From the NCBI GenBank assembly GCA_027492795.1, contig JAPUEB010000032.1, positions 1-64,000 of the forward strand: 64,000 nucleotides of DNA. Direction: 5' to 3'. A program made the position numbers and the translations under genes. This DNA is from Chryseobacterium sp. Its GTDB lineage: Bacteria > Bacteroidota > Bacteroidia > Flavobacteriales > Weeksellaceae. Positions within the stretch are counted from its first letter, which is position 1. Every line of letters starts with the position of its first letter. A model generated the notes under the pieces. That model made no database searches and was not told the origin of the DNA. It saw only the letters and a list, made by a program, of their open reading frames with translations. Positions 131-3,683 of this stretch are shown in pieces.

Positions 131-150
131 AGTTCTCTAAATTTTATTAT

Positions 151-247
151 CCTCTCCCCCAACCCCTCTCCAAAGGAGAGGGGAGTTGAAACGCTCAAAA
201 TTTGCGAAAATTTTTAGCGATTTTCCCCCTTTGGGGGACAGGGGGAT
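151..247. repeat. Palindromic intergenic repeat, downstream of ileS
   Basis: Two short palindromes lie between ileS and the dksA-like gene. One is CCCCTCTCC-AAA-GGAGAGGGG (about 164-183). The other is CCCCCTTTGGGGG followed by an extra G run (about 225-245). The second half (about 214-254) is nearly the same as a segment inside ileS at 3010-3048. They may fold as hairpins in RNA, but no T tract marks a classical terminator. Confidence 0.75.
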
Positions 248-248
248 T

Positions 249-3200
249 CTAAACTTTGTTTACTAATACTTTAAATTTCACTTCATCAATTTCTATTTCG
301 TCAAAAATTGACAGTGAATTTACAAATTCTATTTGATTGCACAATACTTCCTCGGAAATATATCCATTATTGTTGATAAGTTCTTTTTTAAACGGAGAAT
401 CTTCTTCTAAACTGATTGAAATTCTGTCTGTTAAGTCAAAATCTTTTTCTTTCCTTAAATTCTGAATTCTATTGATGAATTCTCTTGCGATTCCTTCCGA
501 TTTCAATTCGTCGGTGATGGTCAAATCTAATGCCACCGTTGTTTTGCCTTCACTTGCGACAGTCCAACCCGGAATATCTTTGGTGGAAATTTCCACATCT
601 TCCAAACCGATTTCATAACCAGAAATCGTCATTTTTCCATCTTTTTCAAGCGCAGAAATTTGTTCTGAGTTCATATTTTGAATTTCCAAACCAACCGTTT
701 TCATATCTTTTCCAAGTCTTGAGCCTAAAGTTTTGAAATTCGGTTTGATTTGTTTTACAATAAGATGCGATGCTTCTTCTGCATTGATTAACTGCAATTC
801 TTTCACATTCACTTCTTGCTTAATCAGTTCTGAAACTGCCAAAATTTGTTCTTCCGTTTTCTTGTCCAAAACAGGAATCATCACTTTTTGAAGCGGTTGA
901 CGAACTTTGATATTTTCTTTTTTCCTTAATGAAAATACCATTGAAGTAATGGTTTGTGCTAAATGTGTTTTCTCCACTAAATTTAAGTCGATTAAACTTT
1001 CATCCACTTTCGGAAAATCCGTTAAATGAACACTTTCAGCCGAATCTTTCCCGGTAACCGAATTCAAATCCTGATACAATTGGTCCATAAAGAACGGAGC
1101 AATAGGAGCCGAAATTTTAGCCACAGTTTCAAGGCAAGTGTATAAAGTTTGGTAAGCCGAAATTTTATCTTCGGTGTAATCGCCTTTCCAAAAACGGCGT
1201 CTGCAAAGTCTTACATACCAATTACTTAAGTTATCATTCACAAAAGTATTGATGGCTCTCGCCACTTTTGTCGGTTCATAATCCTGGTAATATTCCGTAA
1301 CTTCTTTCACCAAAATATTGAGTTCAGACAAAATCCAACGGTCAATTTCAGGACGATTTTCAACGTCTTTTTCTGAATAATTAAATCCATCAACATTGGC
1401 GTACAAACTGAAGAATGAATAAGTGTTGTAAAGCGTTCCGAAGAATTTTCTGCGAACTTCATCAATTCCTTCCACATCAAATTTCAGGTTTTCCCACGGA
1501 TTTGCGTTGGAAATCATATACCAACGTGTTGCATCGGGACCATATTTTTTCAACGTTTCAAAAGGATCCACTGCATTTCCGAGGCGTTTAGACATTTTTT
1601 GTCCGTTTTTGTCCAAAACCAAACCGTTTGAAACCACATTTTTATAGGCAACCGAATCAAAAACCGTTGTTGCAATCGCGTGAAGCGTGTAAAACCAACC
1701 ACGAGTTTGGTCAACTCCTTCCGCAATAAAATCTGCAGGAAACGCTTTGTTTTCGTCGATAAGTTCCTTGTTTTCAAAAGGATAATGCAATTGTGCATAA
1801 GGCATAGAACCGCTGTCGAACCAAACATCAATCAAGTCGCTTTCGCGTTTCATTGGTTTTCCTGAATCGGAAACTAATGTAATCGAATCGACAATATTTT
1901 TATGTAAATCAATTTGCGCGTAGTTTTCATCGGACATATTTCCGATTTCAAAATTTTTGAAAGGATTTTCCGACATCAAACCTGCGGAAACAGATTTTTC
2001 AATTTCCTTATATAATTCTTCAACCGAACCGATGATTTTTTCTTCCTTTAAATCATCCGTTCTCCAAATCGGAAGCGGAATTCCCCAATATCTTGAACGA
2101 GATAAATTCCAATCGTTCACGTTTTCCAACCAATTGGCAAAACGACCTTCTCCTGTAGATTTTGGCTTCCAGTTAATGGTTTCGTTCAGTTCTACCAAAC
2201 GGTTTCTCACGGAAGTCATTTTCACGAACCAAGAATCCAAAGGATAATACAACACAGGTTTATCAGTTCTCCAACAATGAGGATAACTGTGGACGTATTT
2301 TTCTACTTTAAATGCTTTGTTTTCAGTTTTTAAGAGAATCGCCAATTCTACATCCCAAGATTTTTCGGGAGAAGTTCCGCCGTCGTAATATTCGTTTTTA
2401 ATATATTTTCCGCTGAACAATTCAGGAACATTTTCGCCTTGCAAAAATTTTCCTGTCAAATCAACCAACGGAACCAAATTATCGTTAGAATCCTTTACCA
2501 ACATCGGCGGAATTCCATTTTCTTTCGCAACTCGTGCATCATCCGCACCGAAAGTCGGCGCAATGTGAACGATTCCTGTTCCGTCTTCCGTCGTCACAAA
2601 ATCTCCAACAATCACTCTGAACGCGTCTTCAGGATTTTCAGCCGGTAAAAACCACGGAACGAGTTGTTCGTATTCTGTTCCTGCTAAATCTTCACCTGTG
2701 AATTCTGCTAAAACCAAAAAGGGAGTCCCCCTTTCCCCCAAAGGGGGAGCTGTGTTAAATTCTTCTGCTGAAACTTCGTAATATTTTTTTCCAAAATTCT
2801 TTTGAAGAAGAACTCTTGCTAAAACGACATTAACAGGTTCGTGCGTATATTGATTAAATGTTTTTACCAATACATATTCTATATCTCTTCCTACTGCTAA
2901 TGCAGTATTAGAAGGCAAAGTCCAAGGAGTTGTCGTCCACGCTAAAAAATAGGTGTCATTATCTAATAAACTTATTTTTTGAAAAAATTTAGAATTTTTC
3001 AGCCCATTATTAGCGATTTCTCCCCTTTGGGGACGGGGGATTTTAAACTGTGCAACAACCGTCGTATCCGAAACATCTCTGTACGTTCCGGGTTGATTCA
3101 ATTCGTGGGAAGACAATCCAGTTCCTGCTTTTGGAGAATAAGGCTGAATTGTATAACCTTTGTACAACAAATTTTTGTCGTAAAGTTGCTTCAATAACCA

Positions 3201-3683
3201 CCAAACGGTTTCCATATATTTTGGTTCGTAGGTCACATAAGGATGTTCCAAATCTACCCAATATCCGATTTTTTCAGTCAAATCGTTCCAAACGTCGGTG
3301 TAGCGCATTACTGCTTCACGACACGCTTTGTTGTAATCTTCAACAGAAATTTTGGTTCCGATATCTTCTTTGGTGATGCCCAATTCTTTTTCAACGCCCA
3401 ATTCTATTGGCAAACCGTGCGTGTCCCAACCTGCTTTTCTAAAAACTTTTTTACCATTTTGTGTTTGAAAACGGCAAAAAATATCCTTAATTGCACGAGC
3501 CATTACGTGGTGAATTCCGGGCATTCCGTTTGCAGAAGGCGGACCTTCGTAAAATACAAATTCAGGTGCACCTTCGCGGATTTCTACGGATTTTTTAAAC
3601 GTATCGTGCGCGTTCCAAAATTGGGTAACATTTTCGGCAACGGCGGTTAAATCAAGGTTTTTATATTCGTTAAACTTCTTCAT
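249..3683 (-). CDS. ileS: Isoleucyl-tRNA synthetase
   Basis: IleRS charges tRNA-Ile with isoleucine in the cytoplasm and edits misactivated valine. The 1144-residue protein has the class I signature region GMPGIHH near residues 53-59, the segment WTTTPWTLPSN at the start of the CP1 editing insertion, and KMSKR at about 696-700. The C-terminal anticodon-binding region follows. Two stretches are odd: residues about 212-225 (IPRPQRGEIANNG) and about 311-323 (APPLGERGTP) are translations of palindromic G/C-rich repeat DNA and lie in or beside the editing domain. The frame stays open, so the gene is probably functional. The ATG at 3683 sits about 25 bases below a good promoter. A housekeeping gene bordering the pigment locus. 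Confidence 0.97.
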   Translation of the reverse strand: MKKFNEYKNLDLTAVAENVTQFWNAHDTFKKSVEIREGAPEFVFYEGPPSANGMPGIHHVMARAIKDIFCRFQTQNGKKVFRKAGWDTHGLPIELGVEKELGITKEDIGTKISVEDYNKACREAVMRYTDVWNDLTEKIGYWVDLEHPYVTYEPKYMETVWWLLKQLYDKNLLYKGYTIQPYSPKAGTGLSSHELNQPGTYRDVSDTTVVAQFKIPRPQRGEIANNGLKNSKFFQKISLLDNDTYFLAWTTTPWTLPSNTALAVGRDIEYVLVKTFNQYTHEPVNVVLARVLLQKNFGKKYYEVSAEEFNTAPPLGERGTPFLVLAEFTGEDLAGTEYEQLVPWFLPAENPEDAFRVIVGDFVTTEDGTGIVHIAPTFGADDARVAKENGIPPMLVKDSNDNLVPLVDLTGKFLQGENVPELFSGKYIKNEYYDGGTSPEKSWDVELAILLKTENKAFKVEKYVHSYPHCWRTDKPVLYYPLDSWFVKMTSVRNRLVELNETINWKPKSTGEGRFANWLENVNDWNLSRSRYWGIPLPIWRTDDLKEEKIIGSVEELYKEIEKSVSAGLMSENPFKNFEIGNMSDENYAQIDLHKNIVDSITLVSDSGKPMKRESDLIDVWFDSGSMPYAQLHYPFENKELIDENKAFPADFIAEGVDQTRGWFYTLHAIATTVFDSVAYKNVVSNGLVLDKNGQKMSKRLGNAVDPFETLKKYGPDATRWYMISNANPWENLKFDVEGIDEVRRKFFGTLYNTYSFFSLYANVDGFNYSEKDVENRPEIDRWILSELNILVKEVTEYYQDYEPTKVARAINTFVNDNLSNWYVRLCRRRFWKGDYTEDKISAYQTLYTCLETVAKISAPIAPFFMDQLYQDLNSVTGKDSAESVHLTDFPKVDESLIDLNLVEKTHLAQTITSMVFSLRKKENIKVRQPLQKVMIPVLDKKTEEQILAVSELIKQEVNVKELQLINAEEASHLIVKQIKPNFKTLGSRLGKDMKTVGLEIQNMNSEQISALEKDGKMTISGYEIGLEDVEISTKDIPGWTVASEGKTTVALDLTITDELKSEGIAREFINRIQNLRKEKDFDLTDRISISLEEDSPFKKELINNNGYISEEVLCNQIEFVNSLSIFDEIEIDEVKFKVLVNKV
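2715..2752. repeat. Palindromic repeat inside ileS, copy 1
   Basis: CCCCCTTT and AAAGGGGG face each other across a C-rich loop within the ileS reading frame. On the minus strand it reads as APPLGERGTP. The same G/C-rich palindrome type occurs between genes at 151-247. The length keeps the frame open. Confidence 0.7.
3010..3048. repeat. Palindromic repeat inside ileS, copy 2
   Basis: The segment starting TTAGCGATTTCTCCCC and ending GGGGGATTTTAAAC matches 214-254 downstream of ileS almost base for base over about 40 bp. The matching sequence at both sites makes a shared repeat origin likely. Here it is translated as IPRPQRGEIANNG. The following residues to about 241 (KNSKFFQKISLLDND) also look unlike the usual IleRS core. 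Confidence 0.75.

Follow-up and report, generated by a model that had tools for sequence, protein, structure and literature searches.

Palindromes inside a flavobacterial ileS gene as candidate ends of a hairpin-bounded element that carries a DUF559 endonuclease

Palindromes in and beside ileS

The stretch of DNA analysed here (the window) comprises 64,000 nucleotides of contig JAPUEB010000032.1 from a Chryseobacterium sp. assembly. It contains ileS (249-3683, minus strand), a single open frame for an isoleucyl-tRNA synthetase (IleRS) of 1144 aa with Pfam matches to tRNA-synt_1 and Anticodon_1, which is host to palindromic DNA. Four exact copies of the core sequences defined below occur in the window, at 168(-) and 226(+), 58 bp apart, and at 2736(-) and 3022(+), 286 bp apart and within ileS. 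The palindrome at 3008-3041 (plus strand; TATTAGCGATTTC-TCCCCTTTGGGGACGGGGGAT) is of an end type that we call E1 and is read in frame as the ileS peptide IPRPQRGEIANN in the CP1 beta-hairpin loop, an assignment that rests on its sequence and on the E1-E2 pair in the same loop at loci L153 and L082. The second internal palindrome, at 2726-2754 on the minus strand (plus-strand sequence TCCCCCTTTCCCCCAAAGGGGGAGCTGTG), is of type E2 and is read in frame as TAPPLGERGT. Just downstream of ileS lies a short inverted pair whose left half is a CTCC-type hairpin end (149-187, minus strand) and whose right half is a CCCC-type, E1-like hairpin end (214-247, plus strand) adjoining the ileS stop codon (249-251).

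The original prediction held that the segment 3010-3048 within ileS matches 214-254 almost base for base, that a second palindrome lies at 2715-2752, and that both internal copies keep the frame. A hand alignment of the first two segments agrees in 36 of 41 columns, the second palindrome is present in the opposite orientation, and ileS is one open frame throughout. The pairing of the copy at 226-236 with a CTCC-type palindrome at 166-180 was absent from that prediction. Its further claim, that both copies add a peptide to IleRS, fits the first, which clearly lengthens the protein, but not the second, which replaces about 10 native residues for a net gain of one.

We compared ileS with 80 named loci from relatives, in which six core sequences were sought. 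Both palindromes and both peptides are present in a single locus (L104, from the MAG Cloacibacterium sp., JAGOJI010000017.1, 89% identical). In a second locus (L153, MAG JAITMJ010000085.1) the same CP1 loop contains a short pair in which E1 and E2 are separated by 73 bp; its E1 core variant, CCCCCGTCCCCAAAGGGG, is the one present in our ileS. None of the six cores was found in the other 78 of the 80 ileS loci. Such restriction to few relatives is what the original prediction expected of inserted repeats. By sequence, L104 and L153 match genomes G018 and G003, respectively.

At the first site, 33 aa separate the VVAQF-like and LAWTTTPWT motifs of our IleRS, against 19 aa in 55 of the 80 relatives; the length of this CP1 loop varies from 19 to 56 aa among relatives. 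At the second site the distance from QYT to YEQL is 57 aa, compared with 56 in 76 and 57 in 3 of the 79 measurable relatives; the relative with the same palindrome is among those three. Because this length is nearly unchanged, we infer that the second palindrome replaced native codons. In a predicted model of CP1 (mean pLDDT 78.8), strands 25-31 and 60-66 flank the stretch that contains the first peptide (model residues 32-44), of which residues 40-43 score under 50 in pLDDT. The second peptide (model residues 129-138) covers the turn between helix 122-127 and strand 135-145 together with the first residues of that strand. In an alignment to IleRS 8c8w, both peptides fall in or beside gapped regions. 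The suggestion that the peptides occupy loops agrees with the model, which shows an inter-strand stretch, predicted partly with low confidence, and a helix-strand turn; their position at the surface is inferred. The same CP1 loop of ileS contains an unrelated expansion, for example ENETCGGVNHWAEFD or AGATCGGALHWAEFD, in Kaistella and relatives (L108-L111, L113-L116, L118, L119).

A dispersed family of inverted pairs

The genome to which the window belongs (G000; 2.96 Mb in 46 contigs) contains 38 exact copies of an 11-base core, CCCCTTTGGGG, and 37 of a CTCC sibling core, CTCCTTTGGAG, whereas the core patterns read backwards, which served as the control, have no exact copy in either case. When one mismatch is allowed the contrast is weak (187 against 102 in the control), and for this reason the counts were made on exact cores. 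The 75 exact sites are strongly clustered, with 22 neighbour pairs less than 700 bp apart against 1.3 expected. Of these pairs, 18 have the orientation '-+', 2 are '+-' and 2 lie on the same strand; none of 20,000 strand shuffles reached 18 '-+' pairs. The many further copies between and inside genes of the same genome bear out the repeat nature proposed for the ileS palindromes.

Two inner sequences recur inside the hairpins, both directed inward, and define the end types E1 (AGAAAATCTCTAATACTAA) and E2 (AGAxCxGTGGCAAA); the rule for these motifs was written after the sequences had been viewed. Among 20 tabulated pairs, both ends could be singly classed in 10, and 9 of these, the ileS pair included, combine one E1 with one E2 end, the other having two E2 ends. 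The ends of the remaining 10 pairs are unclassed or ambiguous. A search of seven loci against Rfam returned no family at the gathering threshold. At one locus (L027, G000:C34, about 11.15-11.58 kb) repeats, among them an E1-like stretch, have enlarged the interior of the pair, and the assembly has a run of N there.

Family DNA was also found in frame in other host genes. A Pfam check, applied to sites with long open frames on both sides, identified the hosts as leuS, valS, murG, hutU and genes for a P-type ATPase, an M3 peptidase, a C39-peptidase ABC transporter and an alpha-2-macroglobulin-type protein, the last with three in-frame family sites; the site at C33:2329 was judged a chance match and excluded from the insertions. 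In valS, the copy immediately precedes ATTRPE in CP1 and is an insertion relative to 1gax. The editing domains of class Ia synthetases are homologous, and we infer that ileS, leuS and valS of this genome all carry family DNA in the corresponding loop. The murG stretch that contains an in-frame pair exceeds its counterpart in all 10 relatives compared by 53-68 bp; G018 lacks this insertion, and the more distant G003 has an E1-type insertion in the same murG loop. At a third leuS site, our genome has a CTCC copy and G018, by reading, a full pair, and in the only two other parsable relatives the native loop has the same length as ours (4 of 30 loci could be parsed). The dispersed copies, the absence of the cores from most relatives' ileS loci and the CP1 model together uphold the original idea of a mobile DNA repeat tolerated in loops.

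Other short repeats, for example GATTTGA and GGATGCT units, occupy the murG loop and adjacent spacer of some relatives (L360, L363, L361), and this loop therefore seems open to several kinds of repeat DNA. Residues ~857-943 of our LeuRS (L276) are uncovered by matches in many relatives, a feature that seems unrelated to the palindromes.

In a REP/RAYT reading, IS200/IS605-type tyrosine transposases (Y1_Tnp) would move the present palindromes; our genome has seven Y1_Tnp matches. None of the seven loci has pyrimidine-arm hairpins within 320 bp, and the palindromes near two of them are of other kinds. Since no Y1 locus is flanked by these hairpins, Y1 transposases were rejected as the mobilizer, and we consider a REP/RAYT origin improbable. 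The palindromes near the two Y1 loci, L070 and L072, read AACGGGCTTTAGCCCGTT and GGCACTCCGTAGGAGTGC.

DUF559 genes and their flanking hairpins

Only one of the 20 tabulated pairs, the interiors of which were read by eye, encloses a gene foreign to its host. In leuS, a DUF559 domain (PF04480, Vsr-like; E 4e-35) lies between E1 and E2 in one open frame of 1222 aa, and its ends bear the same E1/E2 inner motifs as the short pairs. The second strong DUF559 gene of this genome has inverted hairpins on both sides and is located between what we take to be purH and purN. DUF559 belongs to the PD-(D/E)XK, Vsr-like fold class; the domain matches PDB entry 3hrl (3.6e-20) and, weakly, the mobile-intron protein 3r3p (5.3e-4), and residues invariant across 16 leuS DUF559 domains include DF, E-DG-H and RF-N-E. 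For 1179 of the 1222 residues of our LeuRS, the families listed include no intein domain, and the DUF559 domain therefore probably stays in the protein.

DUF559 matches occur in 133 of the 246 genomes scanned for the family and in 109 of the 198 for the phylum. Pfam identified in-frame DUF559 in leuS (our genome and L220), metH (L207), a type ISP restriction enzyme (L239) and the type I restriction genes hsdR (L240) and hsdS (L238); more cases in leuS, metH and hsdR were recognized by sequence. At 68 scored family loci, strict pyrimidine-arm hairpins are present on both sides of DUF559 in 45, on one side in 6 and on neither in 17. The score leaves out L206 (partial domain) and L211, L219 and L227 (cut by contig ends); 40 of the family loci were taken in E-value order, without G186:C1:349836 or matches further down that order. 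Stand-alone DUF559 genes with an N-terminal M(W/S)KGAP-type motif account for 14 of the 17 hairpin-less loci, the other three being L228 (metH), L231 (leuS of G186) and L245 (broken frame). Among 4,000 control windows from the 80 ileS loci none has hairpins on both sides and 14 have them on one, and none of 280 genes of 90-220 codons from the same loci is bracketed by hairpins; these main controls come from a single gene neighbourhood.

The association extends beyond the family. Of 24 DUF559 loci scored in the wider phylum, which exclude five short ones (L326, L330, L334, L341, L343), 17 have hairpins on both sides, 5 on one and 2 on neither. For plasmid records, 14 of 38 matches were scored, giving 6, 5 and 3 loci in the same categories against none of 3,000 control windows; the six two-sided loci belong to Alphaproteobacteria (3), Deinococcota (2) and Cyanobacteria (1), and at some of the misses hairpins with longer loops are visible by eye. 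We found no report tying DUF559 to palindromic repeats among the titles and abstracts listed by our searches of open-licence PMC papers.

In 26 stand-alone elements the distance between outer hairpin edges is 513-687 bp, with conserved ATT-hairpin...hairpin-AAT boundaries outside which conservation falls off. These are the elements that fit the pattern among 28 loci preselected for hairpins, and the set measures boundaries and not their frequency. A target-site duplication could not be established: 10 of the 26 elements have matching 4-mers where 6.4 are expected, none longer, and the ATT/AAT boundaries mask a possible AATT.

Two other readings bear on this linkage. In the first, some other enzyme moves the hairpins as an independent family, and DUF559, a Vsr-like nuclease of cellular DNA repair, was merely captured between copies. 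In its favour, hairpins are missing from one group of DUF559 genes, and the palindromes of G124 are unaccompanied by any DUF559 match. VsrA, a DUF559 protein studied in Caulobacter as a predicted mismatch-repair endonuclease, takes part in a DNA-damage response (PMC12907096), a cellular role that we count against mobility driven by DUF559. Capture would, however, have to recur in four phyla and several hairpin classes, with similar unit lengths and with common outer boundaries in the class measured. It must also contend with the leuS pair, which alone of 20 encloses a non-host gene, that gene being DUF559, when no control gene is bracketed. We regard capture as unlikely, without dismissing it. 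In the second reading, the hairpins are kept for a selected function as terminators, mRNA stabilizers or translational pause sites, and their movement is secondary. Some pairs do adjoin gene ends, for example the ileS stop and, by reading, the valS stop, but such functions leave unexplained the in-frame copies in several genes, the presence and absence of copies among relatives and the linkage to an endonuclease, and we give this reading little credence.

Signs of movement and a proposed mechanism

Many relatives have a leuS gene without DUF559, encoding 938-970 aa and a short CP1 hairpin loop. In L299 and L220 the flanking leuS residues are identical, and L299 has a loop of five residues where L220 has the element. 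The genome G012 (80% complete) retains an E1-like relic in leuS (L300) and has no DUF559 match. Empty sites thus exist in relatives for both leuS and murG. They also bear on the notion that the palindromes are ancestral or chance low-complexity loops and not insertions, for which the variable length of the CP1 loop might be cited. Together with the lack of exact control matches and of any family core in nearly all relatives' ileS loci, they leave that notion with almost nothing to recommend it.

Across 16 genomes with leuS-DUF559 (120 pairs), identity of the domain is unrelated to that of the flanking LeuRS (rho 0.08; p ~0.17 in a Mantel test). The two LeuRS flanks, by contrast, follow each other closely (rho 0.91, Mantel p 0.0005). 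At the extremes, G018 and G030 are 83% identical in the domain and 63% in the host LeuRS, and G167 and G176 are 55% and 92% identical, respectively. Such decoupling would be expected if the domain had been acquired or replaced repeatedly at one site, with the reservations that the pairs are non-independent and that no tree was used; fast evolution of the domain could add to it. Palindromes are also in excess in genomes with in-frame DUF559 (median excess 7.5 in 16 genomes, picked by E-value and frame length, against 1.0 in 230 others; p 4e-5, uncorrected for relatedness), and the three most palindrome-rich of the 246 family genomes (G000, the window's own, G003 and G186) all have leuS-DUF559. 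By contrast, G124, with 24 palindrome copies, gave no DUF559 match at our threshold, and in G018, the closest relative, the cores match only 13 times, compared with 8 matches of the control. CTCC palindrome arrays are present on several contigs of G124 (L202, L203).

What comparison of the sequences establishes is a dispersal as inverted pairs with common E1/E2 inner sequences and a linkage of DUF559 to hairpins in Bacteroidota and at some loci of three other phyla. It further establishes sharp boundaries in one element class, sites left empty in relatives, decoupled leuS domains and in-frame copies in a set of genes that includes leuS, ileS, valS and murG. Mobility driven by DUF559 is an inference, as no movement has been seen and nuclease data are lacking. 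We think it probable that the ileS palindromes are the terminal hairpins, E1 and E2, of non-autonomous derivatives of an element that consists, in full, of two inverted GC-rich hairpins around one DUF559 endonuclease gene. That the two ileS copies may be distinguishable ends of such an element, the best reading on present sequence evidence, was not visible to the original prediction.

We infer that the DUF559 endonuclease would nick or cut the hairpin ends or the target. Repair of the break may then copy the ends, with or without the gene, into it, often swapping out a few tens of bases, and occasional loss of the gene would leave short pairs and single ends. Allelic, homing-like transfer could bring the element back to the same loops. 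Copies may survive in essential genes, we infer, because they are sited in variable loops and their ends, in the frames that are kept, contain no stop codon (PLSPKGE, SPLGERG, LTPTLSKGEG).

Several points count against this model: the hairpin-less group of stand-alone DUF559 genes, G124, the low count and missing murG insertion of G018, and the want of a clear target-site duplication. In addition, the two ileS ends bracket native ileS and not cargo, which the simple model does not explain. Because the intervening sequence is native, a single insertion with cargo was dropped as an account of ileS. The simplest alternative would be two events, in which a short pair like that of G003 entered the CP1 loop and lost its E2 end, and a separate E2 end replaced codons ~280 bp away.

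The element resembles several known systems. The original prediction likened the ileS palindromes to Rickettsia palindromic elements (RPEs), which are genome-dispersed palindromes read in frame inside unrelated genes (PMC10969869). The likeness holds at the protein level, although no RPE sequences were compared, and the present family differs in its occurrence in Bacteroidota, its inverted pairs with two end types and a candidate mobilizing gene between the same ends, which goes beyond what had been foreseen. The CGTC repeat class, which includes RPE-4 and RPE-6, was reported in 2013 to have no dedicated transposase (PMC3733652). The same survey describes REP/RAYT systems as short hairpin repeats, often dimers, near gene ends and sometimes intragenic, with a partner gene (PMC3733652); the element shares these features, but its partner is a Vsr-like endonuclease and not a Y1 tyrosine transposase, whose loci here lack such hairpins. 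As with MITEs, short inverted-repeat copies have inner motifs in common with a longer gene-bearing form, leuS-DUF559; unlike MITEs, the ends are hairpins, a target-site duplication has not been established and the long form has no classical transposase. Homing endonuclease genes and inteins likewise place an endonuclease within the reading frame of a conserved gene and, at one and the same site, show signs of having been acquired horizontally; the weak similarity of DUF559 to 3r3p points the same way, but no intein domain appeared in the scans of our LeuRS and the family is also present at many unrelated sites. In sum, its effect on proteins would be that of an RPE, its architecture resembles that of MITEs and REPs, and its behaviour in leuS would be that of a homing element, but we assign it to none of these.

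A wider proposal, for and against which we find the case evenly balanced, is that bacteria harbour a class of hairpin-ended mobile elements whose movement depends on a Vsr-type (DUF559) endonuclease, with no classical transposase involved. Such a class would spread in two forms: as full elements, some of them resident in frame within leuS, metH and genes for restriction enzymes, and as short non-autonomous derivatives through which peptides are added to essential proteins. It would return to one editing-domain loop in LeuRS, IleRS and ValRS alike, and might be the general origin of coding palindromes. New here is a different coding palindrome family with a resident candidate enzyme; how such repeats are mobilized can therefore be put to the test with a small, defined element in a laboratory strain. 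If true, the proposal suggests a role for DUF559, a widespread domain still of 'unknown function' in Pfam, and shows how selfish DNA lengthens or rewrites loops of essential enzymes; the hairpin-ended element may also illustrate the way in which protein-coding palindromes are spread.

An end-to-end unit of 1469 bp in G186 was considered as an autonomous element and rejected, as both copies lie in a duplicated region and the palindromes are in frame in neighbouring genes. Near-identical duplicates at L184 and L185 (G186:C1, ~1.682 and 1.691 Mb) contain genes that we presume, by sequence only, to be recombinase-like, one of which has an in-frame CCCC palindrome near its start.
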